Part shown: in pieces, positions 2,274 to 64,000 of the stretch
How positions within the stretch are numbered: position 1 is the stretch's first letter
How the letters are laid out: every line of letters begins with the position of its first letter
Source: Limnomonas spitsbergensis
Taxonomy: Eukaryota; Chlorophyta; Chlorophyceae; Chlamydomonadales
Length of the DNA: 64,000 nt
Direction of reading: 5' to 3'
Assembly (NCBI GenBank): GCA_037349105.1
Contig: JAYJMM010000041.1
Span: forward strand, 6,756,501-6,820,500
The notes under the pieces: generated by a model
The model's database searches: none
The model's input: only the letters and a program-made list of their open reading frames with translations
Told to the model about the DNA's origin: nothing
Program-made: the position numbers and the translations under genes

Positions 2274-4793
2274 ATGCGTTCTCATCTATTGCTCTGTTAT
2301 GTCACTCTCGTTTGCTCGTGGTCCGTGTCTGCGTCACCTCCAACCGACGTTGTCGTTCTGAACGATTCGAACTTTGAGCATCACACACAAGCAGCTACTG
2401 GGCAGACAACAGGAGTTTGGTAAGCTGCAAATTTGAAGCTGGATCCGTTGGCTGTCACCGTCAGGTACATGGACCTGGGTCAGATCTGTTTCAGGTCACC
2501 TTCAACTGCATGGCCCCTCGTGACATGCATGTGTGACGTCACATGAGCACAGGTGTGTTCTCTTTACTTCGCCAAAGGACCGAGTGAGCCATCAGGCTGC
2601 CATATCAGCATGGGAGTACCTGGCCTCGGATGAAGATAAGGAAGTCATTTTTGCCATGATCGACCTGGACAGTAACAAGCAGGTCAGAGGCTTGACATAT
2701 TGCTCGCTATTTCACCTTTGGGGGGCCACAGGGCGGCAAATGCTGTTCTGAGGGGGACCAAACCTTGGCGGCCTTTGTTTGGTTGCAGGGCTTGCCACAC
2801 CAGGCCCCCACGGCCGCAGGCCATGATGTTGCCGAATTGCAGCCGAAGCATATGGACATAAAACTGGTGTCGGGTGCATGACATGCATATTGACATGTCT
2901 TATCTTACTGTTTTCCTTTCTGAAGTAAAAAACCAAACACGCTGCATGGAAATCCCTGTCATCCTGTCTGCAAGCCGAGGGAAGCTTCCTGTGAGAAAGC
3001 CATCTGATCCTTCCAATAATCCAGTCTCAGGCCGTGCACAATCGTTGCTGCTGCTCTGTCAGGTGGCTCAGAGGTTTCAAGGAGTAAAGCCTCCAACCGC
3101 TGTTTTGCTGAAAGGGCGTTCGGTGAGCCACTGATCATGCCCTGTGCCTGTCTTGCTGAAAGGGCGTTCGGTGAGCCACTGATTATGCCGAGTGCCTGTG
3201 GATACAAGCAATGATAGTCCCCAGCAATGGCATAGGTCAGAAGACTTACCTGACTCTCACAACTTTCTTCTTCAGATGTACACTTATGCAGTTCCAGACA
3301 GCGACGATTGCCATGAGCACATCCTTGGCTTTGTTTCAGGCAGTTACGCGCTCCTGGTACGGGGGCAGCGGGATATCTTTCAATGAGATGTTTGCCTGTT
3401 CAAATCATGGTTTGGAGACCCCGAAATCTCCCTGAGGCTGTGCCACCGGTATACCCAACTTCCCTGGTATTTTAGAATAACCGTACATGGAAGGCTGAGA
3501 TGTAAGGCTTGCCACTCTCACACGCTCCTGCCACCCTTCCCAGCCTCGGCAGGAGGTTCCACCTGAGAGCGCAGGAAAGTTTGTGTCTCTAGGACAGGTG
3601 AGCTTCAATGTGCACGACGGGGATTCTACGTGATGATTAAATGAGTAACTGCCAGGGGGACCCTGGTTCAAAGCAGCGGTATGAACTCCCAAGCTCTTTT
3701 CAATATGCCAGCTTCTGATATCGCTGTTCAGTTGTAATCATGATGGACTCTTTAATTGGTATTGCACGATGCATTCACAGCAGTGCTGTGCAATTGCGCT
3801 GTAATTCAGAAATCTTGTTAGTACTTACGGTCCCTTACTGGTAAAAGTACCTGAATTTGTCTTGGAATTACTCAGCTACTCAATTACTCAGCTCCATTCA
3901 GCCACCGTAAGGACCATAATCGGCACAGCACTGATTCACAGGATGGCTGGCAGCTCGATGAAGCGAACACCAGCAGACTCAAATGGGCCCTCGTGCTTTT
4001 GGCTGTGGTGAGTGCTTGGTTTTGTTGGGATGGGAGGGTGGCAAAGAGGCGAGGGGTGTGCCACTGTGCTGGCAAAAAAACTGGTGCCTGGGCTTGCAGC
4101 CTTGCACTAGACCTTACTTCAAGGCTCTGAGATCTGAATTAGCCTGAATTATATCTGAACTAGATCTGAACTGGACAGCCGCTAGACTGCTGCACCCTGT
4201 ACCCCTGATCTCCTGCAAGGTGCCTGCTGGATTTCCGCTGGGCTTGCTGGATTTCCGAATTGGTTTCAATTGCTGCTAAAATCTGGTGCCTTGCATGGAT
4301 GGCCTCTGCTTCACACCTTTCAGATCTGGACTCATCTGCTGCACTCCTGATCTCCTCATGGTCCAGGGTTGAGGGTATTGGCTTTAAACCTAAACCCTAG
4401 ACTCCTGATCTCCTCATGTTCCAGGGCACGTTCACTCATATCAGATGCCTGACGTGTGCATCTGTTGCTTCTGTCCTGTGCCATCACACCTTGCTCGGAT
4501 GGTGTGCTGCTCAGGGCGTCCTCTTCAAATGCTTTCTTTACTCCACGTCAGCCTCGAAGGGCAGTGGGACAAAGCCGAAGGAGGTGCAGGGCCAGCCCAA
4601 GGCCAAGAGGGTGCGGATGGAGCATGCAGGGAAGGCGGATGAGACCACGGCCAAGGCAGAGCATGCAGTGAAGGAGGACGGGGCCAAGACCAAGGCGGAC
4701 AAAAAGGTCCCGGCCAGTAGCATCAGCAAGCCAACAAGGCCATCGACGGGGGATTCGGCTGGAAAGCAAGGGAAGGCAAAGAAAGAGACATAG
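2274..4793 (+). CDS. TMX/PDI-like membrane thioredoxin-fold protein lacking the CxxC
   Basis: Seven exons: 2274-2419, 2553-2682, 3063-3122, 3276-3356, 3544-3597, 3942-4007 and 4515-4793. They join in frame to 271 residues. Residues 1-21 are a signal peptide (MRSHLLLCYVTLVCSWSVSA). Then DVVVLNDSNFE and TTGVW match the start of PDI-family domains. After WCVLFTSP, where the family has YAPWCGHC, this protein reads KDRVSHQ, so both catalytic cysteines are gone. VAQRFQGVKPPTAVLLKG (residues 93-110) supplies the rest of the fold, with the cis-proline at P103. A hydrophobic segment at about 170-188 is followed by a Lys-rich tail. The likely place is the ER membrane, with the thioredoxin domain in the lumen; the role would be binding or chaperone-like, not redox. 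The domain call is strong and the function is inference. A 48-bp duplication copies the end of exon 3 with its donor. Confidence 0.8.
3105..3200. repeat. 48-bp tandem duplication of exon 3 end plus donor
   Basis: Positions 3105-3152 and 3153-3200 are nearly identical. The first copy holds the last 18 nt of exon 3 (LLKGRS codons) and its donor GTGAGC. The second is an intronic replica with an intact donor. Using the second donor would insert 48 nt, but that insert contains TGA (just after the first GTGAGC), so it would end the protein. Confidence 0.9.
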
Positions 4794-5728
4794 CTGGAGG
4801 CAAGTGTTGTGCGTGGCTGACCATGGGTCATGGGCTGTTTGAATGGACGGTGCGTGCATGTAAAGTCGTGCTCGTTGTGTGTGGCTGACCATGGGTCATG
4901 GGCTGTGTGTTAACGGTGCGTGCATGCTTTGTCATGCTTGCTGTGTATTATGGGAGCATGCATGGAACAATGCATCACACTTGTATGGCTCATAGGCCCC
5001 AAAATTGACACCTCTGAAAGTTTGTCACAGTTGTATCGGACCTCCCATGCCGTGACCACGATTGTTTGCAGTTGGCTCACAATATTTGTATATCCTATAG
5101 GAAATTCCCCCTCCGCCCAAATCTCTGTTTGCCATTGGTGTGGGCACTTTTGGATGAGCTTTGTATGGAGGGGCTACTGGCCTAGAAATGTTGCCAGTAC
5201 CTGGTGGTGCTGTTTTTTGCAAGGGTAAGATATCATAGGAGTTGTTGAGCCACAGCAGTTCTCGCGGCTCAGAGGCAACAAGGGAGGGAAAAACAAGGTA
5301 TGAATCAGCCGGGTTCATCCATTACTTTCTTCCATGTTTGGCATGGCAGGTACATTTTAACGGCATGCTTACAACGAGCATTCATGTGGATTATAATAAG
5401 TTTTGCTTGGAAACAACTCTTGAATCCTTATTCAGTCCCTGGCCTGTTCACATGGTAGCACAATACGGCACAGGTTATGACCGATTCTACTACCAAAGTG
5501 CCACAATACGGCACAGGTTCAGCCGGATTGTGCTACCATGCCTGTTCAGCATGATCCACAGACATACATGCAAATGTTCTCTGTTGGGCGCCGTTCTACT
5601 AGCAGGGCAGGTGCAACGGCATTAAAATGCTTATCCGGTTCAGATCTCATGACGCTACATGGGAGGTATGATGCTAGCACGCAACAAAAACAGGGGCTGC
5701 ATGGAACCATTTTGAGATCAAGTAAGGT
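4794..5728. other. intergenic, no gene seen
   Basis: Apart from the small TIR element at 5451-5540 and a duplicated CTGACCATGGGTCATGGGCTG string near 4818 and 4886, I see no exon with coding character. The open frames here lack recognizable domains and plausible splice partners. Confidence 0.6.
5451..5540. mobile_element. 90-bp hAT-like MITE with 8-bp target duplication
   Basis: A 19-bp terminal inverted repeat begins CATGGTAGCACAATACGGC at 5451-5469 and closes at 5522-5540 with one mismatch. The element is flanked directly by the 8-bp direct repeat CCTGTTCA (5443-5450 and 5541-5548). An 8-bp target duplication is typical of hAT transposons. It has no coding capacity, so it is a non-autonomous element. 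Confidence 0.8.
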
Positions 5729-5744
5729 GGTGTTAAAAAACACC
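5729..5744 (-). terminator. histone-type 3' stem-loop of H2B
   Basis: On the minus strand GGTGTT-TTTT-AACACC forms a perfect 6-bp stem with a 4-nt loop, 45 nt after the H2B stop. Size, loop and position match the 3' processing signal of replication-dependent histone mRNAs, and H2A has the same element. Confidence 0.82.
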
Positions 5745-5789
5745 GGTTATGAGGTTTGATGGGATCGGGAATGGTGCCTGGTGAAGTGC

Positions 5790-6173
5790 TTAAGCCGACG
5801 TGAACTTCGTGACAGCCTTGGTGCCCTCAGAGACAGCGTGCTTGGAAAGCTCTCCTGGCAGGACCAGGCGCACAGCGGTCTGGATCTCACGGGAGGTCAT
5901 TGTGGGCTTCTTGGAATAGCGGGACAGTCGGGCAGCCTCGGTGGCGATCTTGTCGAACATGTCGTTCATAAGGGAGTTGAGGATGCTCATGGCCTTGGAG
6001 GAGACGCCAGTGTCGGGGTGGACTTGCTTGAGCACCTTGTAAAGGTAGATCTTGTAAGACTCCACTGTCTTGTTGGATTTCTTCTTCTTCTTGCCATCGG
6101 TGCTCTTGACAGCGACCTTCTTCGCGACCTTCTTCTCCGTGGGCTTCTTCTCAGCGTTCGCCTTAGGTGCCAT
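5790..6173 (-). CDS. H2B: histone H2B
   Basis: An intronless 127-residue core histone that pairs with H2A in the nucleosome. The N-terminal 40 residues are a Lys-rich tail. The histone fold follows, with [39 protein letters not shown], the SRYSKKPTM loop, [20 protein letters not shown] and [13 protein letters not shown], which is the full family length. The ATG at 6173 gives the normal start MAPKA. It is divergent from H2A with 211 bp between the start codons. Expression is probably S-phase linked, given the shared promoter and the 3' stem-loop at 5729-5744. Lack of introns beside intron-rich neighbours is usual for replication-dependent histones. Confidence 0.97.
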
Positions 6174-6384
6174 TTTATTGACTGGGGGATACTACAAGTT
6201 AAACGATTGATGTGATGCATTTTGGTAATCGCGAGGCGTTTATGTAGTGTTCATTTGTTGACGATCGGATCAGCAGACATCGACAGCTGGTCTGCTGATC
6301 CGACCTCCAAGTCGTCTATTTAGACAGACATGGTGACGTAGGAAGTCACAACCTTCAATCTGTACTCGAACCTAAGTCGATAAC
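6174..6384. promoter_or_regulatory. bidirectional H2B/H2A promoter with 13-bp inverted repeat
   Basis: The 211-bp spacer contains a perfect 13-bp inverted repeat, CGGATCAGCAGAC at 6266-6278 and its complement at 6290-6302, with 11 bp between. Weak TATA-like strings lie on either side: CTATTTAGA near 6315 for H2A, and ACATAAAC on the minus strand near 6240 for H2B. The palindrome lies between them and suits a shared activator site. The regulatory role is inference. Confidence 0.75.
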
Positions 6385-6789: not shown

Positions 6790-6833
6790 TCACTCTTCAG
6801 TCATCATCCCCTCCAAGCTACTCAAACCAAACC

Positions 6834-9971: not shown

Positions 9972-12900
9972 CTAGATAACGGTTCCGTCGCGAATTGTGG
10001 TCCCGTTGTTGATGACGACGATCCCGCTGCGGATGTAGACGCCCTCTGACTCGCGAGTGGCCTCAGTCACACCCTGCACACAAATAGTTGGTTAGCATCA
10101 GCGCCACTTTTAAGCAAGTTACTTGATAATGCCTGAGGTACAACAGAGCTGTAACATGGCCTACAGCCGCGGAGGCCAGATTCAGCACACCCTACAGCTA
10201 GGGACACTAGGCGTAGGCCGGTCAAGGTGTTATCACTATTGGACTAAGGTCAAAGGTTTAGGGTTTGAGTTACCGGCCTGCTGAAGGTGGTCAGGTGTGG
10301 CCCACGAATTACATTGCCGGCTCCCCCCTTAACCTCCTCTTTGAGAGTCTGGACGCTGCCATCACGTAAAGAAAGAAAGCTACACCCTACTGGGGCTTGG
10401 AGGTTCAGGAAACAAAGCAGCTGAGCCCTATACCACACTCCCACATGGGCCATCAGCCACTCCTCTCCTCTGTTAACAAATTGGATGTTAACCTTTCCCC
10501 CCCACCCCTGACATTCTTTTAGTTAATCTTAACGTTACAACCCCAACATCCTTTATGCTAATCTTAACGTAACCCCCAGTGCGAAGAAATCAGCGCTACC
10601 GATATGCTGACAAATCCTCTGCTGAAATCAGGATCCCAGCTCACCACGTTGTTCAAGACCTGCACGCTGTCTCCCGCCCCCATTTAAAATACAGGTTTCC
10701 TCCGCAAAGTTGATACAAAAGTCTGTGCTGTTGATCTGGACCGCCCCCCCCTCACACCACCTTCATGATAATCTAGATGCTGCCCCAACTCAGGGGGAAA
10801 ATGCTCGGTGCACTGATATCTCTAAAACAGCTTGCTGCATATCTTGAACCCAAGCTCACCTCCTTGTTGCAGATCTGCACGTTCAGGGTTGATGGTTTAA
10901 ACCATACAACCCTTCATTAGGTTTGCTGCTAATCTCGACCCCAAGCTCACCTCCTTGTTGATGATCGGCACGTTCAAGGTTTAAGGCTTAAACCCTACAA
11001 CCCTTAACTAGGTTTGCAGCTGATCTCGACCATAAGCTCACCTCCTTGTTGCAGATTTGCACGTTCAGGGTTAAAAGGGTGTAAACCCTACAACCCTTAA
11101 CTAGGTTTGCTGCTAATCTCGACCCCCAGCTCACCTCCTTGTTGATGATCTGCACGTTCTTTCCAACGCGCGAGTTCTTGTCTACAATCGCATTCATGAT
11201 CCTGCAGTTCTCCCCGATGCCGATGGGGATGCCTCCCGCGGCGAGCACCGCCTGCTTCTGGTCCTTGCTCTCATAGTAGTCGGCACCCATAATCATGGCG
11301 TCCTGCGAAACGGATTCAAACCAGGAGGACATGATATCATTGTGACAGGAGAGCATACCAGGAGGACTTGTCATGGTAACAGGACATCAAACCAGGAGGA
11401 TATGATCTTTGTGACAGGATATCAAACCAGAGGGATGTGATTGTTGTGACAGGAGAGCATACCAGCAGGGTATAAAAAAATACAGGAGGCAGGATGGACG
11501 AGCGGGACAAACAGGAGGCGGAATGGGCACCAAGGACCACAGTGTTTTGGTTTTGGCTGGACGGGATCGGTACGTGGCAGCCCAAGGCAGGATGAACGAA
11601 CATCTACTGATATTTGATACCGGTAGTTCTATGCGGGTGAGAGAAAGAAGGATCCAAGCTTGCCTATGCCCCCCATCGTGATGTTCAGCACACTGGGGGG
11701 CATGGTTTTCGCTCTCTGTCCTAGCGTATCTAGTGCCTGTACCGGTTTACGGGCACAAGTCCCATGCATCAAATGTGATGCCCCATTGGACTGAAAAAAC
11801 TTCACAAATTTCGAACTCAAGCTACCCCGCAGCTAGGTCCCAGCCTGAGGCCAGGGAGCCAGGTGCAGCTCGCCAGGTTTCCTATCCCCCGGCCTCCCGC
11901 TCATCAAGTTTGTGTCCCAATCCGCGCTCTGGTGGGCACACGGCCGCCACACATGGGTAGTCTGGGGAACACAACAAGCAACTCCTGTGCCACACCGCCC
12001 CCAAAAGGCTCGAAACCCGGGCCTGAACCCCAGGTGGAGGGTGCCCTTGCCAATGGGTTCAAGGTGTAGCCTGGTGTTTAGTCGCCATCAGGACGGTGCA
12101 TCCCTTTTCCAAGGTGCGGCATTTACCTGGATGGTGCATCCCTTTCCAATGGTTGCGCGCAGGCCGATGACGGCGTTGTTGATGGTGCTGTTGGACACGC
12201 TGGCGCCCTGGGCGATGATGGCGTCCATGATCTTGCTGTCCACGATCGTGGCGGGGGGCAGCACGCGGGGGGAGGTGTAGATCGGGCTCTGGGGGTCGTA
12301 GAACTCAAAGTCAGCCGGCTGCAGAGGAAAGGGCGCATGGAGAGAGGGGGGTCAGAGAAAAGGGCGGACGGAGAGAGGGGGGTCAGCGTATGAACCTATC
12401 AACCTTGAATACAGGTATAGGATTTTCAAGCAAACAAAGTTTTTGTAGCAGAGGAAGTACTTCAGGCAGAGTGGGACAGCCTGTCACGGTCAGCAGGGAC
12501 ATAGGTGAGAGCGCAGCACCTTTGTGCAGACCAGCTTCAAGCAGAAAGGGACACAGCCTGTCATGATGCTAACACTTGTGAGCGAAACATGCTTTCTCAG
12601 CATAAACATGCCAGAGATTAAGCATCAGCTGGGAGGAAGGGATGCCCGCTCAGCCTGAGCCGCTGCTGAGTGACTGGGATCCCCAGCGGGTAACCCCGCT
12701 GTCCGATCGGCTGTGATCGGCCATAGGGAGCATCTGCATGAGATAAAAGTGATCTGGTAACCACTTGAAGAGGTTTGTACAACAGCCCTGCCAAGCTCAA
12801 AATCCTAATTCCGACCCACTCCATACGGGCAGCATGCACACCTGTCGCAACATGTTCAGCATCCTCGATCCTCAGCCCTGCACTGAAACCTGCCTGTCCT

Positions 12901-15900
12901 GCGTGCCTTACACTACACCCCACCCCACCCCGCCCGCCCTAATCCCACACAGCCCCGCTCAGGCAATCACATGGCCCACCCAGCCGAATTTGCACGTCGG
13001 CAATTATGCAGTTCATGAACTTGTACATAATTTCCTGCCCCCCTCCCCTCCCCTGCTGCCCTGCCCTGCACACTCACATGGCGGCACAGCTTGAGGTTCT
13101 CCTCGAAAAAGGACTTAATGGTACCGATGTCTTCCCAGTAGCCGTAGAAGGGGTATGCAATCACGTTCATCTCCTTGGCGGCCAGGGGGATGATCTCGCC
13201 ACCAAAGTCATTGGCGAGGGGGAACTTCTGCTCAGGGAGGAGAGGAAAGGAAGGGCGCGTATGCAGGACAGTTAAGATACGTCGCAAGGTGCACAGGGTC
13301 ACAGTTCAAAAAAGCAGGCCACACATGGAAACGAATTTGGAAATTGGTGAGGCACATGCGGGAGAGCTAAATATGCAAGGCACGCTCAGTAAAGGCAACG
13401 GTTGAAAGCAAGACGGGAAATCAGGGGCACTAGGGCATAAATATTGTACACTTTCTAGTAATGTGAAGCCGGAGACGGGGTCATGTGGAGGTTAGTGAAG
13501 CCGGAGACGGGGATATGTGGAGGTAAGTGAAGCCGGAGAAGTAGGGGGTTCCAAGTGGCGATCCGAGTCAAGCCTGCCTCCCTGCTTTCCTAGCCTCCCA
13601 CCTTGGTGAGCAGATGAATGACCCTATACCACGTCGGTGGGCAGATACCCAAACCCTAAACCACCTTGGTAAGCAGATCAATTAGGACTTGCTTCTTGAA
13701 GACGTAGATTCCCATGGAGGCGATGTACGGCTTCTCGTCAGCCTCCTCGGGTGTCAGGCCTGCCGGTACGGGGGGAGGAAGACCAGGGCATTGAGGTCTG
13801 GGGGGCAGTGTGGTGTATAGCTATGTTTCTGGCTGAACGTGGAGCATAAGGGTGGGAAGTCAATAACGTTACACATCTGGGCCCGCTCAAAGCTCGGCCG
13901 CGTGGGCGCCCAACTGTTCAGAAGGGAGTAAGGAAGGAACTAAAAGGAAAAGAGGGGGAAAGGAACAAAAGGAGAGGCCGGGAAGGCAACGAAGACCAAG
14001 TCCGACACCTGAGTTCCACTAGAGACTAACCCTCAACAAAGCCTCTACACACAAAAAAATCCAGAAAAGCAAGGGTGGGAAGTGGGCACCCCATGTTGTG
14101 ATGGATAGCAAGCTTCACACACGATGTGTCAGATTGAATCAGCGACAAGCAGCCGGGAAAGCTCACCGAGCACTGTTGTGTCCACCCTCATCTCAGCGAG
14201 CGCCTCATCTGTCTTGGGCTTCTCTGAGAAGTCCTATGAATGTAGGGGGGATGAATAAGATATTACGCACAAGGACTGGCCTGGGGTGGGCAGCGCCAGG
14301 AGGAGGGGTACTGACAATTCTTATTATTCAGAGGCTGGAGGACGTCCGCGGGGCCACCTATGGTGCTGGAGACCCTGTGGCACATTGCTTGTTGGGGTGC
14401 TCAAGATTGGGAGGGTAAGGGCCTGTGGCATCGGCGTCGGGTCGGTAAATAAAGACTCGGACACACAAAGATGTGCTTTCCAGCATGCCGGTAGTCATGG
14501 GGATGGTGCGCAGAAGTGGGGTGTGGAGGCATGGACACAGAAATAAGGCCAATGTAGTCTATCATGGCCTCCTGGAACATGCATGCATGGCAGCTGTCAA
14601 AACTTGAGAGAGCCTCTCTGGCTCGATGAGTGAATTCTGTATCACAATTTAAGAGATTTAATACTTGATATCCACTCCAAGATCACCACAATGCGACCGT
14701 TATCCTCTCTGAGGCTAACAGCGGCTACAAAGCTACTAGACCCATGAACAGCTTTCATGTGGAGCTCACCAGTGTTGCAACTGTCTTCCCTGGCTTAGAG
14801 AGAGCTAGACCAGATATTTCCAGCTGTTTCTTCCTTAGGCTCACAACCTTTCAGAGGTTGTCCTCTGATTCTTAGAGCAGGGCTGTTCACTGCTTTACTT
14901 CTATGCAGACTGCGGAGCTTCTCAACGTGCGGCACATTTCCTCACCGACTTCAAAAGAGAATATCACAGCTGCTTTCTGTTTTTACTGCGTTGAGAGCTC
15001 ACCACAATGCGGCGGTTGTCATCGATTTTCATGAGGCCAAAGTCCTTGGCACGGTCCTTGCTATTGGGGATGCATCCGACCGTGATGTCGGCATTCATCT
15101 CGCGGTGGTAGTTGACGAACTTCATGTAGTCCATGCGGTACCTGCCGGTGCATGGCTCTTCAGTTCAGCATGGGGTCACCGAAGCCGCGCATGGGTTTGA
15201 TATTCAAAATGCGTGGGATCATCAGTGAGATCATGGGCGCACAAAGTGTGCGCACGCACCGGAGCTGAAGCATGCGTGCTAGGCATGCCTATCGATGGGG
15301 GTCTCTGGGTTTTGCGAATGCACCATGCTCCTCACAGATGGTCGCCGGACAGGATGATGACGTCCTCAATCACACGGTTCTTGATGTCGCTGAGCATCCA
15401 GGTGTATTGCCTCACGGCATCAGCCGTACCCTGGAACCACTGCCCATCCTTGTTGGAAGGCGTCTGGGTCGCTGCCAGCACCTCAACAAAGCCCTCGCCA
15501 CCGAACCTAACCCCAGATCCCATGTTGTAGGCGCGGCCAAGGTGGCGGTTCAGGGAGGTGGAGTTGAACTGTGTCAGGATGTAGATCTTGCTGATGCCGC
15601 TGTTGATGCAGTTGCTCTGCATGTGCACGCAGTGTGTGGCGGGTCAGGCAACAGACGTGTCGGGAGGTGTTGACAAAACGGTCCGAAGACCTCGTGTCGG
15701 AAGAAACGAATATTCGTCTTAGAATTCTCACCATGGGGACATCGATCAGGCGGAAAAGGCCACCGATGGGGACTGCGGGCTTGGCGCGGGTCTTGGTGAG
15801 GGGGAACAGTCGGGAGCCAGCTCCACCGCCCAAGATGATCGCTGCGCAAGTAAAGCAGACCATCAGCTGCCAATTGGCTATAAAAATCTGGTCGCAATAT

Positions 15901-18155: not shown

Positions 18156-18189
18156 GGTTTGAAGAAGTGATGGTTAAGGCAGGGTCAAC

Positions 18190-18594: not shown

Positions 18595-18599
18595 TATAG

Positions 18600-52900: not shown

Positions 52901-55900
52901 GACCTGGCTGAGGCTGCTGCTGACCCGGCTGAGGCTGCTGCTTGACCCGGCTGAGGCTGCTGCTTGACCCGGCTGAGGCTGCTGCTTGACCCGGCTGAGG
53001 CTGCTGCTGACCTGGCTGAGGCTGCTGCTTGACCCGGCTGAGGCTGCTGCTTGACCCGGCTGAGGCTGCTGCTGACCCGGCTGAGGCTGCTGCTTGACCC
53101 GGCTGAGGCTGCTGCTTGACCCGGCTGAGGCTGCTGCTTGACCTGGCTGAGGCTGCTGCTTGACCCGGCTGAGGCTGCTGCTTGACCCGGCTGAGGCTGC
53201 TGCTTGAACTGCCTGAGGCTGCTGCTTGACCCGGCTGAGGCTGCTGGTTGACCCGGCTGAGGCTGCTGCTTGACCCGGCTGAGGCTGCTGCTTGACCCGG
53301 CTGAGGCTGCTGCTTGACCCGGCTGAGGCTGCTGCTTGACCCGGCTGAGGCTGCTGCTTGACCCGGCTGAGGCTGCTGCTTGACCCGGCTGAGGCTGCTG
53401 CTTGACCTGGCTGAGGCTGCTGCTGACCCGGCTGAGGCTGCTGCTTGACCCGGCTGAGGCTGCTGCTTGACCCGGCTGAGGCTGCTGCTTGACCTGGCTG
53501 AGGCTGCTGCTGACCTGGCTGAGGCTGCTGCTTGACCCGGCTGAGGCTGCTGCTTGACCCGGCTGAGGCTGCTGCTGACCCGGCTGAGGCTGCTGCTTGA
53601 CCCGGCTGAGGCTGCTGCTTGACCCGGCTGCGGCTGCTGCTTGACCTGGCTGAGGCTGCTGCTGACCCGGCTGAGGCTGCTGCTTGACCCAGCTGAGGCT
53701 GCTGCTTGACCCGGCTGAGGCTGCTGCTTGACCCGGCTGAGGCTGATGCTGACCTGGCTGAGGATGCTGCTTGACCCGGCTGAGGCTGCTGCTTGACCCG
53801 GCTGAGGCTGCTGCTTGACCCGGCTGAGGCTGCTGCTTGACCCGGCTGAGGCTGCTGCTTGACCCGGCTGAGGATGCTGCTTGACCCGGCTGAGGCTGCT
53901 GCTTGACCCGGCTGAGGCTGCTGCTTGACCCGGCTGAGGCTGCTGCTTGACCCGGCTGAGGCTGCTGCTTGACCCGGCTGAGGCTGCTGCTTGACCCGGC
54001 TGAGGCTGCTGCTTGACCCGGCTGAGGCTGCTGCTTGACCCGGCTGAGGCTGCTGCTTGACCCGGCTGAGGCTGCTGCTTGACCCGGCTGAGGCTGCTGC
54101 TTGACCCGGCTGAGGGTGCTGCTTGACCCGCCTGAGGCTGCTGCTTGAACTGCCTGAGGCCGCTGCTTGACCCGGCTGAGGCTGCTGGTTGACCCGGCTG
54201 AGGCTGCTGCTTGACCCGGCTGAGGCTGCTGCTTGACCCGGCTGAGGCTGCTGCTTGACGCGGCTGAGGCTGCTGCTTGACCCGGCTGAGGCTGCTGCTT
54301 GACCTGGCCGAGGCTGCTGCTTGACCCGCCTGAGGCTGCTGCTTGACCCGGCTGAGGCTGCTGCTTGACCCGGCTGAGGCTGCTGCTTGACCTGGCTGAA
54401 CTGCTGCTTGACCCGGCTGAGGCTGCTGCTGACCCAGCTGAGGCTGCTGCTTGACCCGGCTGAGGCTGCTGCTTGACCCGCCTGAGGCTGCTGCTTGACC
54501 CGGCTGAGGCCCCTGCTTGACCATCTACGTCTATTAATCTATGAAGGCCTTAGACACTCCTACTCGCAGGGCGTCTGCTCTGGTGACAAACAACCAGGCT
54601 AGGGGGGGGATGTTTGCTGGTGAAAGGACTTGAATCCATCTATTTATATTCATCCATGAAGCCGTCGCATACGCTTTCTTGCAGGGAGTCTGCTCTGCTG
54701 ATCACCAGTTTAGAACCCGAAACCCTAAGCTACACGATAGGCGGTGATGAGAGGACTTGATTCCATTTATTTATATTCATCCATAAAGCCGTTGGACTCG
54801 CCCTCTTGCAGGGAATCTGCTCTGTAGATATTTCGTCTTAACCTTAAACCCTCAACCCTAAGCTTGACGATATATGCTGATGAGAGGACTTGATTCCATT
54901 TACTTTGATCCATGAAGCCGTTGGACACGCCTGCTTGCAGGGAGTCTGCTCTGCTGCTTGACCCAGCTGAGGACGATATCATGCAGCATCTGTGGATAGC
55001 AACGGTAAGGACACAGATTTGTGTTGTTTGAGATTTTATTTTCACCACGGATTCTAGTTGATAGTGTTGATTATAGTTTCCAGTACCGATCCAGTACCGA
55101 TCCAGTACCGATCCAGTACCGATCCAGTACCGATCCAGTACCGATCCAGTACCAATCCAGTACCGATCCAGTACCGATCCAGTCCCGATCCAGTGCCGAT
55201 CCAGTCCCGATCCAGTGCCGATCCAGTCCCGATCCAGTGCCGATCCAGTACCGATCCAGTACCGATCCAGAACCGATCCAGTACCGATCCAGTACCGATC
55301 CAGTACCGATCTAGTACCGATCCAGTACCGATCCAGTACCGATCCAGTACCAATCCAGTACCGATCCAGTACCAATCCAGTACCGATCCAGTACCGATCC
55401 AGTACGGATCCAGTACCGATCCAGTACCGATCCAGTACCAATCCAGTACCAATCCAGTACCGATCCAGTACCAATCCAGTACCGATCCAGTACCAATCCA
55501 GTACCAATCCAGTACCGATCCAGTACCCATCCAGTACCGATCCAGTACCGATCCAGTACCGATCCAGTACCAATCCAGTACCGATCTAGTACCAATCCAG
55601 TACCGATCCAGTACCGATCCAGTACCGATCCAGTACCGATCCAGTACCAATCCAGTACCGATCCAGTACCGATCCAGTACCGATCCAGTACCAATCCAGT
55701 ACCGATCCAGTACCGATCCAGTACCCATCCAGTACCCATCCAGTACCGATCCAGTACCGATCCAGTACTGATCCAGTACCGATCCAGTACCGATACAGTA
55801 CCGATACAGTACCGATCCAGTACCGATCCAGTACCGATCCAGTACTGATCCAGTACCGATCCAGTACCGATCCAGTACCGATCCAGTACCGATCCAGTAC

Positions 55901-58900
55901 CGATCCAGTACCGATCCAGTACCGATCCAGTACCGATCCAGTACCAATCCAGTACCAATCCAGTACCAATCCAGTACCAATCCAGTACCAATCCAGCACC
56001 AATCCAGTACCGATCCAGTACCAATCCAGTACCAATCCAGTACCAATCCAGTACCACTCCAGTGCCGATCCAGTACCAATCCAGTACCAATCCAGTACCA
56101 ATCCAGTACCAATCCAGTACCAATCCAGCACCAATCCAGTACCAATCCAGTACCAATCCAGTTCCAATCCAGTACCAATCCAGTACCAATCCAGTACCGT
56201 ACGGATTCTTGCTTTCTGTACGGATTCTTGCTTTCTGTACGGATTCTTGCTTTCTGTACGGATTCTTGCTTTCTGTACGGATTCTTGATTTCAGGACGGT
56301 TTTCAGTTGTCAGTTCAGATTTTAACAATTTAGTTCTACCGGTATGGCTTTCCAGATCTGCAGTGCAGTCTTCAGTATAGTTTTCATTACATATATCAGT
56401 TTCAAGTCCGATCTCAGATTGGCAGCCCAGATTCAGATTTTGCAGTAGTCCAGATTTGGGGGTCACGGTTTATGGATCGGGGTATAGGATGGTACGGGAG
56501 GTAGCAAGGTGGTGGCGAGAGGGTACGGGGGTGACACGGGAGTGGTGGTGGGGGGGAGGGGGGGGGGAGGTAACGGGAGGATGGCGGGATGGTACGGGGG
56601 ATCTAATGCGGTGCTGGCAGGAGGGAGGGGATGGTTTAGGGTTCAAGTTTTTTGGGTTTAGCACCTTAAGCCCTGACCCATATACCCTGAACCCTAAGCC
56701 ATGATCCCTAAACCCTGCAATTGAAGCCCTGACACATATACCCTGAACTCTAAGCCCTGGCCCATATACCCTGAACCCTAAGCCCTGGCCCATATACCCT
56801 GAAGTCCTGAACCCTAAGCCCTGATCCCTTAACCCTATACCCCAACCCCGCACTCCCCCATTCCAGGTGGTGTGTCACGAGATTGTTCACCAGTGGTTTG
56901 GAAACCTGGTCACCCCCAGGGACTGGAACGAGCTGTGAGTCGTGGAGGGTGGGGGACGGGATGAACCTGGCTGGCTGGCTAGTTGGCTGGCTAGTTGGCT
57001 GGCTAGTTGGCTGGCTTGTTGGCTGGCTGGCTGGCTGGCTGGTTGGCTGGCTGCCTAGTTGGCTGGCTGGCTGGCTGTCGTTTTGGCAAACAAATCCGTA
57101 TTGTATTGTATCGTATTGTATTGTATTGCATCGATACGGTCCACTTCGGTGCACCGACTGGTAACCCACACTTGTGTCCCGTATTGGCAAAAAATATCCC
57201 GTATGGTACCGTTTTGTATTCCCATATTCCGTATCCTGTGTCCCTGGCCCTGGCCCTGGCCTGTGGGGAGCAATGCAATAGAAAGCGGCAGGCGTAGTGT
57301 AATGTCTTGTTTTAGTGTGTCAAACTACTTTTGGGGGGGGGAGAGTTAAGTTCACTGCTGGTTTTCTGGGCAGCATACCATGATTGACCTACAGCTGGTG
57401 GCCCAAGCACCATGACGTGCTGCGCCAGGCTTCCTGGTGGTGGGCTAGGGTTTTAGCAGCTAGGGTTTCAGCAGCTAGGTTTTCAGCGTAGTGTTGTTTA
57501 GGTCCATGACGTTACACCTCACGTTACACGTGTTGCTTAGGTGTAGGTTAAGCGCGCTAAGCTGGGACAGCTTCCACCGGGCAAGTGGTTTTGAATGAAA
57601 GCTTTGCAGCCTTATTCAAAAACCTTAAACCCTAAACCCTAAACCCCAAACCCTGAACCCTAAACCCTAATTCAAAAATCATAGGAGTGCCTCCAGGGCT
57701 TACGTCTATGAGACATGTAGCTGAACTCTAGCTGAATGATAGCTGGATTGTAGCTGAGTTATAGTTGGACTGCAGCTGGACTGCACTCAATACTTGTCCA
57801 TTGCGTGTAAGTGGCTGATAGACGGCTTTGCAGCCTGCTTTGAAAATTTGGGGGCCCAGGCATACCATGGCGACTTTGGCCTCTGTTACCTGTCCACCTG
57901 TGGCTGAAGGGTAGCTGAAGTGCAGTGACGAGGGTACTGAAGAGTTGTTTATGAGCCATGCAGGCGGCTGATAAAAGGCTTTGACTGGTTTCGAGAACCT
58001 GGGGTCCCAAGCGCACCACCGAGACTTTGGCCGCTGGTACATGTAGCTGAATAATGGCTGACATGCATCTACATGTAGCTGAATATTGTGGCTGACATGC
58101 ATCTTCAAGTACTATTTTTGAACCGTGCAGGTGGCTTAAAGAAGGCTTTGCGACCTACTTTGAGAACCTGGGGGCCCAGGCGTACCACCGAGACTTTGGC
58201 GTGTGGGATCTGTACTTCACTGACGGTACATCAGCGGCTCTGCAGGACGACTCCATGCTGTCATCCCGTCCTCTGTCCAGGGTGAGGGGTACAGAGTCAG
58301 GGTGCAGGGTACAGGTTGAGGTTTAAGGCCAGGAGGACTCCATGCTGTCGTCCCGTCGATCCCGCCCTGTCGAGGGTGAGGACGGCGGTGCGGGTCTCTG
58401 CTTAGGGCGAAGGGTACAGAGGTAGGGTTCAAGGCCAGGGTCGAGGGTAAGGGGGGGGGTGCTTGCTTGCATAGGGTATGGGGTACAGAATCAAGTTGTG
58501 AGGTCAGGGTTCAGGGTGAGGCGGTGGTGCTGGTCTGTTGTGTGCATTTGGTGTTAACTTCCCTCTGGGACGAGCGCCATTGCTGCGATATTGTTGCTGC
58601 TACTGCTACTGCTGCTGCTACTGCTACTGCTACCGCTGCAGCTACTGCTGCTGCCGTTCCTCTTGCTGCTACTGCTACTACTGCTACTGCTACTATGGCG
58701 GTGGGGGTGGCTACTGCTACGCCTTCTCTCTCCTGCTTCAGTCACAGCGGCGTCAACGGCTGTGACGCTTCTCACCTGCCCACCCGGCCGCTTTCTTTGG
58801 CAGGCCACGAAGCGCCTTCCCGCTTGGGTTTAGTGCTAACATCCTCTCAACCCCAGACCACTAGGTGCCTTTCTCGCTTGGCTGGCGGTGGCGTCTGTTC

Positions 58901-61900
58901 CTTTCTTTGCACCACACTGTGTCTGGCTGATGGTTCGATGGGGTCTTAACCTGGAGAGCCTGATCTTCTGTCGGTGACCTACCGGTAAGCACAGGGCACC
59001 CAGCCTCCCCAGTCGTAAGCCGTGGCATGCGTACTGCCCCCCCTGCCTTGCCCCATCCCCCATCCCCCCTTTGCCTCCCTCCCCTCCGTCTCTCTTGTGT
59101 CAGCTGAACCCCATCCAATACTCCAAACCCTGAGCCCTGACTGCTGCCTCTTCTCCCTCCTCCTTACCTGTGTCAGCTGAACCCCATCCAATACTCCAAA
59201 CCCTGAGCCCTGACTGCTGCCTCTTCTCCCTCCTCCTTACCTGTGTCAGCTGAACCCCATCCAAAGTCTTAATTTTTAATCCCTGGACCTTGCCTCCTTC
59301 CCATCTGCCTTTCCTGTGTCAGCTGAACCCTGACTGCTGCCTCTTCCCCCTCCTCCTTACCTGTGTCATCTGAGCCCCATGTAAAGCTTGAACTCTGAAC
59401 CCTGAACTCTGAATCCTGAAACCTGAACCCTGAACCCTGAACCCTGAACCCTGAACCCACTCCCTCTGCCTCTCCTGTCTCAGATGAACCCCATCCAATA
59501 TTCCTAACCTGAACCCTGAACCCTGCCTCCACTCCCTCTGCCTCTTCTGCCTCAGATGAACCCCATCCAATATTCCTAACCCTAATCCCTGAACCCTGCC
59601 TCCACTCCCTCTGCCTCTTCTGCCTCAGATGAACCCCATCCAATATTACCAACCCTAATCCCTGAACCCTGCCTCCACTCCCTCTGCCTCTCCTGCCTCA
59701 GATGAACCCCATCCAATATTCCTAACCCTAATCCCTGAACCCTGAATCCACTCCCTCTGCCTCTCCTGCCTCAGATGAACCCCATCCAATATTCCTAACC
59801 CTAATCCCTGAAACCTGCCTCCACTCCCTCTGCCTCTCCTGCCTCAGATGAACCCCATCCAATATTCCTAACCCTAATCCCTGAACCCTGCCTCCACTCC
59901 CTCTGCCTCTCCTGCCTCAGATGAACCCCATCCAATATTCCTAACCCTAATCCCTGAACCCTGCCTCCACTCCCTCTGCCTCTCCTGCCTCAGATGAACC
60001 CCATCCAATATTCCTAACCCTAATCCCTGAACCCTGCCTCCACTCCCTCTGCCTCTCCTGCCTCAGATGAACCCCATCCAGAGCCTCTCCGAAGTGGAGA
60101 GCATGTACGACAGCCTCAGCTGTGAGTCATGCTCAGTAGGGGGGGGGGGGGGGGCAGGGCAGAGGCAGGTACGCTAATGTGCAGCAGTACAGGATGCTCC
60201 CCAACCCCTGAACCCTATGTGCAGCTGTGAGTCATGCTCAGCAGGGGGAGGGGGGCAGGGCAGAGGCAGGTACGCTAATGTGTAGCAGTACAGAATGCTA
60301 CCCAAACCCTGAACCCTATGTGCAGCTGTGAGTCATGCTCAGCGGGGGGGGGGGAGGGACAGGGCAGAGGTAGGTACGCTAATGTGCAGCTTAGTGCAGG
60401 GTGCCGGTATGGCCTTTACATGAAATTGCAGTACAGGGCAGCACAGGGCACAGGCAGAAGCTAATGTGCAACTTGGTACAGGATTCCGGTATGGCCTTTA
60501 CATGAAATGATTCTTGTTTAACGAAATGGGTGAAGTGCAGGAAGACATGTGAGTCGTATTCGAGCGCTGTTTTTTATATATTTGTGGATCCACCTGGTCT
60601 AGTGCGGTACCGCGGTACTGTTACGGTATAGTGCTGGACGGTACCGTATATTACCTTTTCCATCAAATACAGCGCACACCCGAGGGGGGGGCAAAAACAA
60701 ACCAAAAAATCGGCCCCATCCTGCTTTTTGTAGAGCTTGACGAGAGCGTTCCATAGCTTTTTTTTTTTAAGTTTTTGGGCCCAGGGGGGTGGGAGATATG
60801 GAGGAGCAAAGTTGGGGTGGGTGGGTGGGTGGGTGGTCCCCCAAAAATCCAATAGTTGTTTTTGTTTCCAAACTTCGTACTATTTTCCCTGTAGGTCTGT
60901 TGAGGCTGGCAGCGGCACCTATGTGTTCTCCTTGCCAACATGAGTTCATTTACATCCTAAAATGTTGCTTGAAGTACCACATGACCCCCTGCCCCCCCAT
61001 ACTGAGGGTTTGGCTCCATTGGACACACCCCGAAACCAGCTGAGTCATTCTTAGTTGACTGTTGGCATGTCATCACCTAACGAATTGAAATATACCATTA
61101 GAAGCGCCTTGCTGAGCTGATCAAAAAACACCACTTGCCCTGTTATTTTGAATTTTGACTGAGATATTTCAATTTCAATGGGTTCCGGAGGCAGGGGTGG
61201 GTGGGGTGGGGGTAGGCTCGTTGGGTGCTCGTTTTGGGGGGGGGGGCATGGGGTCCCTGGCATTTTTTTTTGCTCCCCCCTCGCGTGCACCCCTTTGTTA
61301 ATGTTTCAAAATGCTGCGTGTGGTTCGTCCAGTGCCTCATGGAGAGCTCGTGCGTGCGTGTGAGTAACGCTTGGTGGATGGTGCTGAGGCAGACGAGGGG
61401 CGGCAGCAGCAGGGCATCACCTTCTGTTTGAATTAATGACACTTTTTGTTTGAATTAAGGACACACTTTGTTTGAATTAAGGACACACTTTGTTTGAATT
61501 AAGAACACACTTTGTTTGAATTAAGGACACACTTTGTTTGAAGTAAGGACACACTTTGTTTGAATTGAGTACACACTTTGTTTGAATTAAGGACAAAGCC
61601 CCTGGACCATACCATGACCTGCCAACAGCCCTTGAGACGATCGTCAGGGCTTGCTACTGTACCATACCCCTTTTTCATTCAAGCTTAGCACAGCTTGTTT
61701 ATTTCACAAGTCTGGGGTCCGGTATGTTCAGCATTGAGGCTAATCTTTGAGATTCTTTCCATACGAAATCTCCGCATAAAAACAAAGGCTCATATGCACG
61801 TGTAAGGAACGCTCAGCGGACGGGGCTGAGGCAACAGGTGGCAGCAACAGGGTATCGCCTCTTGTTGGAGTTGGGGACCCTACCCTTGACCGGCCGGGAG

Positions 61901-62832
61901 CTCAGGGAACAGGGCTGCTCCAGTCCTCCACGGCCGCAGGCTTTGGCGTAGCTGACCTTAAGCAGAATTATAGCTTAACTGTATCTGAAATGTAGCTGAA
62001 TGATAGACTTCTGCCTCCTCCCTGCTCCCAGCTGACAAAAGGTGCGCTGCCCATCTGGCCGCAGGCCACGAGGTAGCTGACATGTAGCATAACTGTAGCT
62101 GAATGGTAGACGCCTGCCTCCCCCCTGCTCCCAGACGACAAGGGTGGCGCCGCCCACTCGGCTGTGGGCCAGGAAGGAACTGAAATGTAGCTGAATCGTA
62201 TACGCCTGCCTCCTCCCTGCTCCCAGACAACAAGGGTGGCGCCGTGCTCCGCATGCTGCGCGCCTACCTGGCCTTCACGCAGCCCGACCCGCCTGCGCCC
62301 GCGGTGATCGACCCCGATACCATCGAGATGCAGCTGCCCATGAGGAGGCGCTCCAGCAGGCGGCGGCGGCGGCGCCGAGGCCGAAGCTTGCAAGACGCGG
62401 AGCAGCAGCAGCAGCAGCTCAGCAGGCAGAAAGGGCAGGGGAGGGAGCAGCAGTTTAGCGGGCAGCAAGGGCAGCAGCAGCAGCTCAGCGGGCAGGAAGG
62501 GCAGGGGAGGGAGCACATGAGAGGCTCCCGCCTACCTGAGCTCGGCGAGCGCGCCCTGGCCGCGCAGTCTGATGAGCTGGGGCAGGAGTGGGAGCAGCAG
62601 GGCGCTTATCGCCTCCCTCCCCCCGGGCGCGCCCTGGCCGCGCAGCGGGAGGAAAGGCTCAGCGGGCGCGCCCTGGCCGCGCAGCCGGAGGATCGGCTCA
62701 GCCGGCACGCCCTGGCGTCGCAGCCGGACAAGCGAGACCCCCTGTTGCAGGCGCTGACGGTATTCCTGCTTCAGCACCAGTACGGCAGCGTGTCCTATAC
62801 GGACCTGTGGCAATCTCTCTCCAACACAACAG
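43970..62832 (+). CDS. M1-family aminopeptidase, type II membrane protein (3' end beyond window)
   Basis: Zinc aminopeptidase that removes N-terminal residues from peptides, with its active domain outside the cytosol. Exons: 43970-44753, 45413-45598, 47506-47600, 48982-49262, 50059-50139, 51092-51169, 54941-55004, 56867-56934, 58131-58281, 60067-60121 and 62227-62832. That is 816 residues so far, in frame throughout. There is one membrane span at residues 58-81, then a Pro-rich stalk at about 84-170. The M1 N-domain follows ([53 protein letters not shown]). GAMEN is at 491-495. [13 protein letters not shown] starts at 527, and the third zinc ligand Glu 550 lies in WLKEGF, giving the exact HExxH-x18-E spacing. 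[12 protein letters not shown] is split over the exon 10/11 junction. Exon 11 then has a 150-residue Arg/Gln/Ala-rich insert before [16 protein letters not shown]. Introns are packed with copies of exon ends. The remaining C-domain must lie right of 64000. Confidence 0.92.
45170..45335. repeat. ~35-bp repeat, CCTGAGCCTTGAACCCAAAC
   Basis: About five direct copies in aminopeptidase intron 1, with CCCTAAA strings inside. The array lies about 80 bp before exon 2. Confidence 0.85.
45634..46830. repeat. ~60-bp minisatellite derived from exon 2 end
   Basis: Roughly 17-18 copies of a 58-63-bp unit (GGGACCAAACAGGTAATTGA, ATGATGTGGGAGAGGGGGGA). The edge copies (GAGAGCTAGTCCAATGGCGT at 45634; CAGGAGCTAGTGTAATGGTG at 46784) link the unit to the true exon end CAGGAGCTGGTACCATGGTG at 45582. 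The minus strand gives a 391-residue open frame that is not a gene. Confidence 0.85.
47227..47550 (+). repeat. tandem copies of exon 3 start plus acceptor
   Basis: Before the true exon 3 (acceptor CCAG at 47505) stand three replicas beginning near 47227, 47335 and 47427. Each has a CCCTCC pyrimidine tract and carries GGCACAGCCCGGAGCATCGT-like exon sequence for about 45 nt; the second and third keep an intact CCAG. Confidence 0.9.
48280..48545. repeat. ~31-bp repeat, AACCCTAATATGGGTGGAAC
   Basis: About eight direct copies with a TCTCTTTATTAA spacer, in the intron before exon 4. The source sequence is not obvious. Confidence 0.85.
48609..49071 (+). repeat. tandem copies of exon 4 start plus acceptor
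   Basis: Three replicas starting near 48609, 48687 and 48841 precede the true exon 4 (48982). Each has a CCAG acceptor or its relic and up to 85 nt of exon (GGCCCGCTTCAACATCACCG, CTCAGCAACATGCCGGAGCT). The third is over 90% identical to the exon. Confidence 0.93.
49485..49800 (+). repeat. copies of exon 4 end plus donor
   Basis: CTCACAACGGTCCGGGTCTG with the AGGAG|GTGGGT donor (49228-49270) is repeated at 49616-49660, keeping GAGGTGGGTTCCA. Pieces of the preceding GGGCATTGGCAGCGAGTGCT segment recur near 49495, 49560 and 49775. Confidence 0.8.
49820..50005. repeat. ~43-bp repeat, GGCACAGGTTGAGCACAGGT
   Basis: Four direct copies including GCACAATACGGCACGATACG. The core resembles the ends of the 5451-5540 MITE. 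Confidence 0.85.
50720..51080. repeat. C-rich tract, CCCCTGCCCCTCCCCTAGCC
   Basis: A long pyrimidine stretch of about 35-bp irregular units leading to the acceptor of exon 6 at 51091. No exon copies are recognised inside. Confidence 0.8.
52196..52590. repeat. 47-bp tandem repeat, eight copies
   Basis: The unit AGTATCTGTTCTTGGGGTAC plus CAGTGCCAAGTGGCCACGAC plus CCCTCCC repeats head to tail with almost no divergence. Relics of exon 7 start (GGAGTCTGCACTTGTTGTAG, GGCGTCTGCACTTGTTGTAG) flank it at 52146 and 52667. Confidence 0.93.
52690..54523. repeat. 22-bp satellite copied from aminopeptidase exon 7
   Basis: About 80 copies of GCTGAGGCTGCTGCTTGACCCG. The true exon 7 contains CTGCTGCTTGACCCAGCTGA (LLLDPAE) at 54951-54970. 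The unit equals that stretch with A changed to G and the ends joined. Since 22 is not a multiple of three, the array is open in several frames and gives an 804-residue minus-strand shadow. Confidence 0.93.
54541..54960 (+). repeat. tandem copies of exon 7 start plus acceptor
   Basis: Three replicas at about 54541, 54657 and 54778 precede true exon 7 (54941). Each has ATGAAGCC or its relative, a CGCAGG or TTGCAGG acceptor and GAGTCTGCTCTG-like exon sequence. Spacing is 116-130 bp. Confidence 0.92.
55078..56196. repeat. 11-bp satellite CCAGTACCGAT, about 100 copies
   Basis: A near-perfect array in which most units are CCAGTACCGAT or CCAGTACCAAT. The two forms occur in long mixed runs, with CCAAT units grouped at the right end. 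It gives open frames on both strands, up to 470 codons, that are artefacts. Confidence 0.95.
56200..56290. repeat. 19-bp repeat TACGGATTCTTGCTTTCTG
   Basis: Five direct copies directly after the 11-bp satellite. Confidence 0.9.
56650..56850. repeat. ~30-bp repeat, CCATATACCCTGAACCCTAA
   Basis: Six or so imperfect copies with CCCTAA strings lead up to the acceptor of exon 8. Confidence 0.85.
56970..57077. repeat. GGCT/GGTT tetranucleotide tract
   Basis: GCTGGCTAGTTGGCTGGCTG-like tract starting 35 bp after the exon 8 donor. Confidence 0.9.
57600..57672. repeat. interstitial CCCTAAA (telomere-like) repeat
   Basis: AAACCCTAAACCCTAAACCC and variants, the plant/algal telomere motif, inside an aminopeptidase intron. 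It is too short and varied to be a real telomere. Confidence 0.75.
57800..58160 (+). repeat. tandem copies of exon 9 start plus acceptor
   Basis: Replicas near 57808 (AAGTGGCTGATAGACGGCTT) and 57958 (GCAGGCGGCTGATAAAAGGC) precede true exon 9 at 58131 (GCAGGTGGCTTAAAGAAGGC). Each continues through about 70 nt of exon. Another copy of the exon end follows at 58331-58380. Confidence 0.9.
59100..60066 (+). repeat. tandem copies of exon 10 start plus acceptor
   Basis: About a dozen units of roughly 73-75 bp, each with CTGCCTCAG or TGTGTCAG and then ATGAACCCCATCCA (or CTGAACCCCATCCA), the first codons of exon 10. The nearest units are almost identical and the distant ones diverge. True exon 10 begins at 60067. 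Confidence 0.95.
60110..60405 (+). repeat. copies of exon 10 end plus donor
   Basis: GCAGCTGTGAGTCATGCTCA recurs at 60222 and 60324 after the true donor AGCTGTGAGTCATGCTCAGT at 60118, in units of about 102-105 bp with a G-run and CAGGGCAGAGGCAGGTACGC. Confidence 0.92.
60681..61285. mobile_element. TIR element with probable target duplication, copy 2
   Basis: The ends CGAGGGGGGGGCAAAAAC (60681) and TTTTTGCTCCCCCCTCGCG (61267) are inverted. Outside stand GCACACC and GCACCCC, one mismatch apart. The interior matches the two ends of the 7747-8909 element in inverted order. It lies in the intron before exon 11. Confidence 0.65.
61432..61605. repeat. 22-bp repeat ACACTTTGTTTGAATTAAGG
   Basis: About seven direct copies, right after the TIR element. 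Confidence 0.92.
61975..62240 (+). repeat. tandem copies of exon 11 start plus acceptor
   Basis: TGCTCCCAGCTGACAAAAGG (62023) and TGCTCCCAGACGACAAGGGT (62127) precede the true start TGCTCCCAGACAACAAGGGT (62218), spaced about 104 and 91 bp. Each is preceded by GTAGCTGAA repeats. Confidence 0.92.
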
Positions 62833-62919
62833 GTGGGGCCTGTCTAAATGTGGAACTGGTGTGGCATTGGTGTATAAATGTATAACTTGTGTGGAACAGG
62901 TGTGGAAGAGGTTGGGGAC

Positions 62920-63960
62920 TATGTTCCTGCTGCAACACCAGTATGGTAGTGTGTCCTACACGGACCTGTGGAACTTCCTCTCCAACACGACAGATGGGGC
63001 CTGTGGAAGTGTGGCACAGGTGTGTAAAATCTGTGAAATTTTTGTGTTGTTGTTGCCGCAGAACCAGTACTGCAGCGTGTCCTGTCTGGACCGTTGGGAC
63101 TCTCCCTGCAACATGACATGTGGGGCATGCCTAAGTGTGGAATAAGTGTTGAATATGTGTTGAATATGTGTTGAACAGGTGGGGAGGATGTGTTTCGGTG
63201 CATCACCAGAGTGGCAGAATGTCCTGCGCAGACCTGTGGGACTCTCCAACTAGTCATGTGGGGCCTGCGTTAGTGTGGGATATGTGTGGAATATGTGTGG
63301 AACAGGTGGGGAGGGTGTGTTCCGAAGCAGCACCTGAACGGCAGCTCGACCTATGCAGACCTGTGGACAATGCTGTGCCAATTACAGTCCTTACGGTGGC
63401 TGAATTCCGTAGCTGGGTTTCTGTAACCCTAATGTCAAGGCAAATTCAGCTACTTTTACCAGCTACTTTTACCAGTAAGGGGCTGTATTTCCTTCCACGA
63501 TTTCTGAACTAAGGCGCAGTTGCACAGCACAGCCTGTGGGACTTGCCAACACGGCAGGTGGGACCTGTCTGAGGGGAAGGGAGGTACAGGGCAGGGGCGG
63601 GGGAAGTGTGAACAAAATGTGGACCAGGTGTTCCTGCTGCAAGACCAGAATGGCCGTGTGAGTGCATGTTGGTCGCATGCGCCTTTCCTGTTCCTGCTTG
63701 CCTTTTCTCAGCTGACGATAAGGGCCACATGCGCACCTTGGCTGTATTTTTTTGTGTTGGCATCTCGGGTTTTGTAGGGTTGGGCAGCCGGCCTCCCACT
63801 TTGTTCAGTCCAGGCAAAAGATAATGGCAGCGTGTCCTGTCTGGAAGTATGGACCTCAGTCGGCGACAGATGGGGCCAGTCTGAGTGTGGATTAAGTGTA
63901 GAATATGTGGAGGGGAGGTGTGGAACAGTCAAAGGGGATGTGTGGCACAGGTAGAGGAGA
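62920..63960 (+). repeat. tandem copies of exon 11 end, several with donor
   Basis: The true end TTCCTGCTTCAGCACCAGTA to CAACACAACAG|GTGGGGCC (62763-62840) recurs near 62927, 63046, 63196, 63328, 63500, 63628 and 63820. Spacing is about 100-190 bp, and divergence generally rises with distance. Between copies are TGTGGAAC(A)GGTGTGGA strings. Confidence 0.9.
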
Positions 63961-64000
63961 GGTGTTGAACAAGTGGGGGGAAGTGTGGATCAGGTAGGGG

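Follow-up and report, generated by a model that had tools for sequence, protein, structure and literature searches.

Tandem duplications across exon-intron boundaries have been described in potato, where a tandem genomic duplication crosses an intron-exon boundary of the RdRp gene (Ma, Lan and Niu 2016, PMC4974935), and in human segmental-duplication genes, which carry internal tandem repeats at exon-intron boundaries (De Grassi and Ciccarelli 2009, PMC2812944). In the Rogers model, introns are gained through tandem duplication of exonic sequence containing a proto-splice site (PMC4974935; Lehmann et al. 2010, PMC2891723). In mammals, telomeric repeats are inserted at double-strand breaks, a few percent of them accompanied by a duplicated flank (Nergadze et al. 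2007, PMC2246262). Here we describe a 64,000-nucleotide (nt) stretch of the genome of the green alga Limnomonas spitsbergensis (GCA_037349105.1, contig JAYJMM010000041.1, positions 6,756,501 to 6,820,500 of the forward strand), referred to below as the window, in which introns harbour copies of the edges of their own flanking exons, mostly together with the splice site. Zhuo et al. 2007 and Gao and Lynch 2009 reportedly concern intron gain by tandem duplication.

The potato duplication resembles those in the window in that its unit consists of intron end, acceptor and exon start and is inherited at the DNA level. It concerns a single gene in which a new intron arose, whereas the window displays many affected junctions, as many as 14 alignable copies at one edge and no sign of a new intron (PMC4974935). 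The human genes likewise carry boundary tandem repeats that alter gene structure. In that system repeat number varies between recent paralogs and transcript evidence is available, whereas here both older and younger copies occur in ordinary-looking genes known from DNA alone (PMC2812944). The Rogers model has in common with the window that tandem duplication turns exonic sequence into intron (PMC4974935, PMC2891723). Its signature, an intron start resembling the downstream exon start and an intron end resembling the upstream exon end, was found in none of the 50 introns examined here (no score of 20 or above on either side; 0.07 expected per side), and an earlier note on this DNA, which had pointed to intron gain by duplication, is not borne out in this respect. 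The mammalian insertions and the genome studied here share interstitial telomere-type tracts; what the latter displays is an association of such tracts with duplications only (PMC2246262). Single boundary-crossing duplications are already published, and their frequency, together with a satellite apparently derived from an exon, is new here. We found no comparable genome-scale series among the open-licence papers listed by our literature searches.

Exon edges are duplicated into the adjacent introns

The exon maps of seven multi-exon genes were rebuilt, giving 50 introns, whose GT-AG ends are all imposed by model construction, and 100 exon edges. The genes encode a choline/ethanolamine kinase, a thioredoxin-like protein, AGPase, a protein at 16.5 kb, EF-G, a protein described earlier as having 699 amino acids (aa) but 679 aa in the rebuilt model, and an M1 aminopeptidase. 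Pfam matches were obtained for EF-G, the aminopeptidase and the kinase, and an NCBIfam match for AGPase. There was no Pfam match for the 679-aa, thioredoxin-like and 16.5-kb genes. An eighth gene, at 20 kb, was excluded from the edge counts due to stops within its model.

Up to 60 exon nt at each edge were compared with the adjacent intron, with edges of other genes as the null; the cross-gene comparison covered exon edges against the introns of other genes. Of the 100 edges, 20 matched their own intron better than any other-gene edge did, where about one is expected by rank. Swapping exon edges gave one match in 552, and non-adjacent edges within the same gene scored 25 or lower. We regarded a junction as spanned when a local direct repeat pair included at least 8 exon nt and at least 3 intron nt. 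Repeats were collected by an offset scan; a BLAST self-comparison overlooked near-diagonal repeats, finding none in the thioredoxin-like gene. The scan detected 1,482 local direct repeat pairs in the window versus 3 and 1 in two block shuffles, and 16 of the 100 junctions were spanned by a local direct duplication with exon and intron in register. Fifteen of the 16 also exceeded every other-gene edge, the sole exception being the AGPase intron 5 donor (score 22, other-gene maximum 26). The best-scoring partner was entirely intronic at all 16. The five genes named in the earlier note all carry junction-spanning copies, and the kinase and 16.5-kb genes (5 introns and 10 edges together) have none. 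The duplication of exon edges is real: the similarity to the own exon that the note had reported, and its rule that donor copies lie downstream and acceptor copies upstream of the true site, were both confirmed. The copies and arrays are as follows.

3100..3199, plus strand: thioredoxin-like gene, donor of exon 3063-3122; 48-base-pair (bp) duplication, copy at 3148-3199 with 23 exon nt, donor included
10635..11164, minus strand: AGPase intron 10, from the donor of exon 11135-11302; unit length 91 bp, five copies alignable, each including 17-30 exon nt and an intact GT
13598..13682, minus strand: AGPase intron 7, donor of exon 13665-13759; single copy, 18 exon nt and GT
14680..15023, minus strand: AGPase intron 5, donor of exon 15003-15141; weak copies (28 nt at 82%, 52 nt at 73%)
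26822..26842, minus strand: EF-G intron 13, 21 nt matching exon 26923-27111 at 90%; exon sequence without donor, outside the 16
30410..30668, minus strand: EF-G intron 7, exon 30624-30804; last 45 nt and donor copied twice, units of about 100 bp
35927..36376, minus strand: 679-aa gene intron 7, donor edge of exon 36341-36571; five alignable copies
36885..37352, minus strand: 679-aa gene intron 6, 41/82-bp array from the donor edge of exon 37336-37458; nine copies can be aligned, all with GT
45571..46834, plus strand: aminopeptidase intron 2, donor edge of exon 45413-45598; copies 67-81% identical to the edge, GT kept in 4/14
within 45571..46834, plus strand: aminopeptidase intron 2 satellite; 62 bp, 17.5 copies
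47148..47562, plus strand: aminopeptidase intron 2, acceptor edge of exon 47506-47600; three copies
48682..49070, plus strand: aminopeptidase intron 3, from the acceptor edge of exon 48982-49262; unit of 136 bp, as many as 89 exon nt included
49616..49669, plus strand: aminopeptidase intron 4, donor edge of exon 48982-49262; one copy, 37 exon nt
52690..54522, plus strand: aminopeptidase intron 6 satellite; 22 bp, 84 copies
54615..54956, plus strand: aminopeptidase intron 6, acceptor edge of exon 54941-55004; three copies
57804..58213, plus strand: aminopeptidase intron 8, acceptor edge of exon 58131-58281; two to three copies, up to 83 exon nt
58271..58453, plus strand: aminopeptidase intron 9, donor edge of exon 58131-58281; two copies
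59071..60086, plus strand: aminopeptidase intron 9, 73-bp array with 13 copies that align to the acceptor edge of exon 60067-60121
60117..60390, plus strand: aminopeptidase intron 10 array; 101 bp, 2.6 copies, beginning 5 nt inside exon 60067-60121 and outside the 16, as 5 exon nt is below the 8-nt threshold
61932..62244, plus strand: aminopeptidase intron 10, acceptor edge of exon 62227-62832; two copies
62833..64000, plus strand: downstream of exon 62227-62832, copies of its donor edge; six alignable copies, outside the 100 edges as the next exon lies beyond the window

Copies were tabulated at 19 edges, with no more than 20 listed per edge, and 74 of the 93 copies so listed cover the junction. 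Of the 19 that do not, 17 lie in aminopeptidase intron 6 and belong mostly to the satellite resembling an exon. Copying from mRNA was rejected as an origin, as it needs exon sequence without intron but 74 of the 93 listed copies cross the junction. What had been said of EF-G is correct for intron 7, where the donor is included, and not for the copy at 26822, which is exon sequence only. The earlier statement that copies nearest the exon are most alike fared less well: among 10 arrays with at least three copies, the gradient was clear only in the acceptor array of aminopeptidase intron 9 (rho -0.87), where the nearest five copies are identical across the aligned 42-44 nt. It was reversed in one array (rho 0.47, P 0.04) and absent in eight.

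Copies are confined to the intron side

We attribute the confinement of the copies to the intron side to coding constraint, because any copy placed on the exon side would add residues to the protein. Within exons, the process is visible chiefly where it preserves the frame. Of 5 exonic tandem arrays, 4 had a period divisible by 3, compared with 10 of 45 in introns, and the remaining exonic array is a proline-rich low-complexity run. The four in-frame arrays, two of which lie in predicted coding sequence outside the exons of the seven mapped genes, are the following.

4620-4696: coding-sequence tandem repeat, period 39
20962-21205: coding-sequence tandem repeat, period 48
62410-62515: coding-sequence tandem repeat, period 36
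62624-62728: coding-sequence tandem repeat, period 39

Among 17 pairs compared at 13 junctions, 15 were more alike in their exon part than in their intron part (means 0.90 and 0.68, ungapped), as expected when one side is held fixed.

Exon-edge copying recurs elsewhere in the genome

Other loci were represented by 20 stretches of 10 kb around translation-GTPase matches, picked from the 260-Mb, 124-contig assembly regardless of repeats. Their gene models are de novo predictions by a finder trained on the window, which recovers 39 of 45 known exons exactly in its own training data, with 53 predicted in those regions. Among 318 predicted edges, 28 exceeded every other-locus edge (1.1 expected), in 11 of the 20 stretches, and 30 were spanned by a local duplication. 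Both counts are approximate because the finder called some copied edges as exons. In locus L013, five near-identical acceptors, each with the exon start, were found by a coding motif, and the last is apparently the real one. In locus L020 (8880-9800), one donor is repeated in a 44-bp array, and a motif across the donor was read 18 times. Named by eye from the prediction, the L020 gene looks IF-2-like. Exon-edge copying thus recurs at other loci of this genome.

The unit of an intronic satellite matches an exon

The unit of the 84-copy satellite in aminopeptidase intron 6 is present in the next exon, 54941-55004, as a 22-mer at 54951-54972. This exon 22-mer occurs exactly once in the satellite (53677), and the commonest satellite unit differs from it by one base. 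The longest exact match to the satellite from any other exon was 12 nt. Judging from these matches, the satellite unit derives from the exon.

Origin of the copied edges

We consider it probable that frequent local tandem duplication at random positions, tolerated only on the intron side, explains the exon-edge copies. Duplications of about 10 to 400 bp would occur frequently and without detectable bias toward splice junctions. Those lying wholly in an exon would be removed unless the frame was kept, and those wholly in an intron would be neutral and decay. When a duplication straddles a junction, the extra exon edge and splice site would become intron, and this would be tolerated because the outer splice site, presumably the one used in vivo, still joins the exons correctly. 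As the exon copy would be fixed by selection while the intron copy decays, exon-anchored copies would be visible longest. Exon sequence would then pass into introns but not back, and would at times be amplified to satellites.

This was examined by forward simulation. Exons were protected, and introns lengthened through tandem duplication at random positions and through other insertions and decayed through substitution. Compared with the 16 spanned junctions observed, the random model gave means of 12.2, 14.9 and 13.8 (standard deviation (SD) 2.8 to 3.0; 20 runs each), and 3, 10 and 6 of the 20 runs per setting reached 16. A first simulation with all growth by duplication (three runs per setting) was discarded; its coverage was too high (0.65-0.87), with means of 21-35 spanned junctions, and about 16 were spanned under the two settings whose coverage came closer to the real one. 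In a gapped test with insertions and deletions (indels), the other loci displayed 27 spanned edges against 28-29 in three runs, and the exon share of the unit was indistinguishable from simulation (Kolmogorov-Smirnov (KS) P 0.50, 0.16). Microhomology showed a median excess of 2 nt among only 9 young two-copy duplications.

Several points weigh against random duplication with exon protection. The simulation settings were chosen by us to match the observed repeat coverage. In the gapped test the window, with 14 junctions, stood at the top of the simulated range (6-14 in 8 runs). At the other loci, one parameter set gave 24-27 and another 34-42 spanned edges against 30 real. On an ungapped measure, exon shares fell below simulation (KS P 1.6e-5, 5e-4, 9e-5), a bias that we rejected since it was gone once gapped alignment and indels were used. 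At the level of arrays, 16 of 48 straddle a junction, versus 5.2 expected with a short unit estimate, 6.7 at present intron lengths (P 9e-5) and 11.1 with duplications removed (P 0.037); this count is conditional on intact exons, and the excess is inflated because exon-anchored copies remain recognisable longer, which the test ignores. In the window, local duplications take up 44.5% of intron and 8.2% of what lies outside the mapped genes; a bias toward transcribed regions was not confirmed at the other loci (6 of 11 loci, P 0.28). Finally, telomere-like tracts lie beside the junction at 10 of 46 copied edges compared with 16 of 372 other edges (P 1.4e-4), although the stretches scored differed in length between the two classes. 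Such an enrichment is not expected from plain slippage.

The array-level excess is what speaks for a junction-directed process, tied for example to transcription or splicing, in which each duplication would begin within the exon and finish within the intron. When half of the simulated duplications were aimed at junctions, means of 25.9 and 26.8 were spanned and none of 24 runs gave 16 or fewer; sixty circular shifts of the real repeats, moreover, predicted 20.8 (SD 3.6), above the observed number. Under the simulation model, strong targeting is thereby excluded and no junction-directed process is needed, as random duplication with exon protection reproduces the counts; on the basis of the array-level excess, mild targeting may occur. 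We therefore regard the directed process as improbable: of the earlier proposal, recurrent exon-to-intron duplication that enlarges introns stands, also at other loci, and its direction toward junctions does not. A possible, though doubtful, alternative is that break repair adds telomere-like filler, resembling the genome's own CCCTAAA repeat, in introns and duplicates the flanking edge, with slippage later multiplying the unit. CCCTAAA arrays occur at 5 of 14 contig ends sampled, and short degenerate telomere-like runs in 30 of 180 duplication arrays (window introns and loci L009-L042) versus 1-14 for 19 permuted units. Beside the copied junctions, 11 permuted units were found at 0-5 of 46. 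In the 10 cases with a tract, its position was near the copy boundary by one-sided KS (P 1e-4) and by block placement (P 0.018), but not by a circular-shift test (P 0.32). Moreover, 36 of the 46 copied edges carry no tract, splice signals may exclude tracts from the other end, and the tract of EF-G intron 7, inspected by eye, resembles part of the duplicated unit and not pure filler. The telomere-like tracts are a lead to a mechanism, not a result.

Retention of the copies as spare or regulatory splice sites, the former suggested in the earlier note, would be consistent with the GT or AG being intact in 57 of the 74 junction-covering copies. However, at the mean identity of 0.825 about 50 sites should be intact anyway if they decay like their neighbours, the copies of one array are not independent of each other, and in 72 of the 74 cases splicing at the copy would put the protein out of frame or bring in a stop, which makes such a role very unlikely. 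That the copies are assembly errors is extremely unlikely, as their divergence from the exon edge ranges from 0 to 33% and the pattern is also present on other contigs. Random duplication with exon protection is accordingly the explanation that we prefer.

About one exon edge in 10 has a recognisable copy of its own in the adjacent intron (16 of 100 in the window; 30 of 318 predicted elsewhere). The exon thus serves as a constant standard for following intron growth, whose rate, direction and age would be measurable. A rather speculative extension is that filler-adding break repair feeds intron growth, with exon edges acting as standing seeds for new intron DNA and exon-derived satellites. If so, the near-identical donor and acceptor arrays would constitute a natural experiment on how the spliceosome chooses the correct site. 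Of several near-identical sites, only the acceptor closest to the exon, or the donor that comes first, yields the correct protein, and site choice could be tested with the acceptor arrays (13 alignable copies at one exon; five at L013) and the long L020 donor array.

Other features of the window

Three further features were noted by eye. A region at about 22000-24900 on the minus strand is retroelement reverse transcriptase-like, with a YADD-type motif near 23040. A dispersed repeat starting near 'gttacacctctgggcccgctcaaagctcggcc' is found at about 13860, 33570, 40190 and 40570, in intron and intergenic sequence. A divergent pair at 5797-6172 and 6385-6789 reads as histones H2B and H2A.

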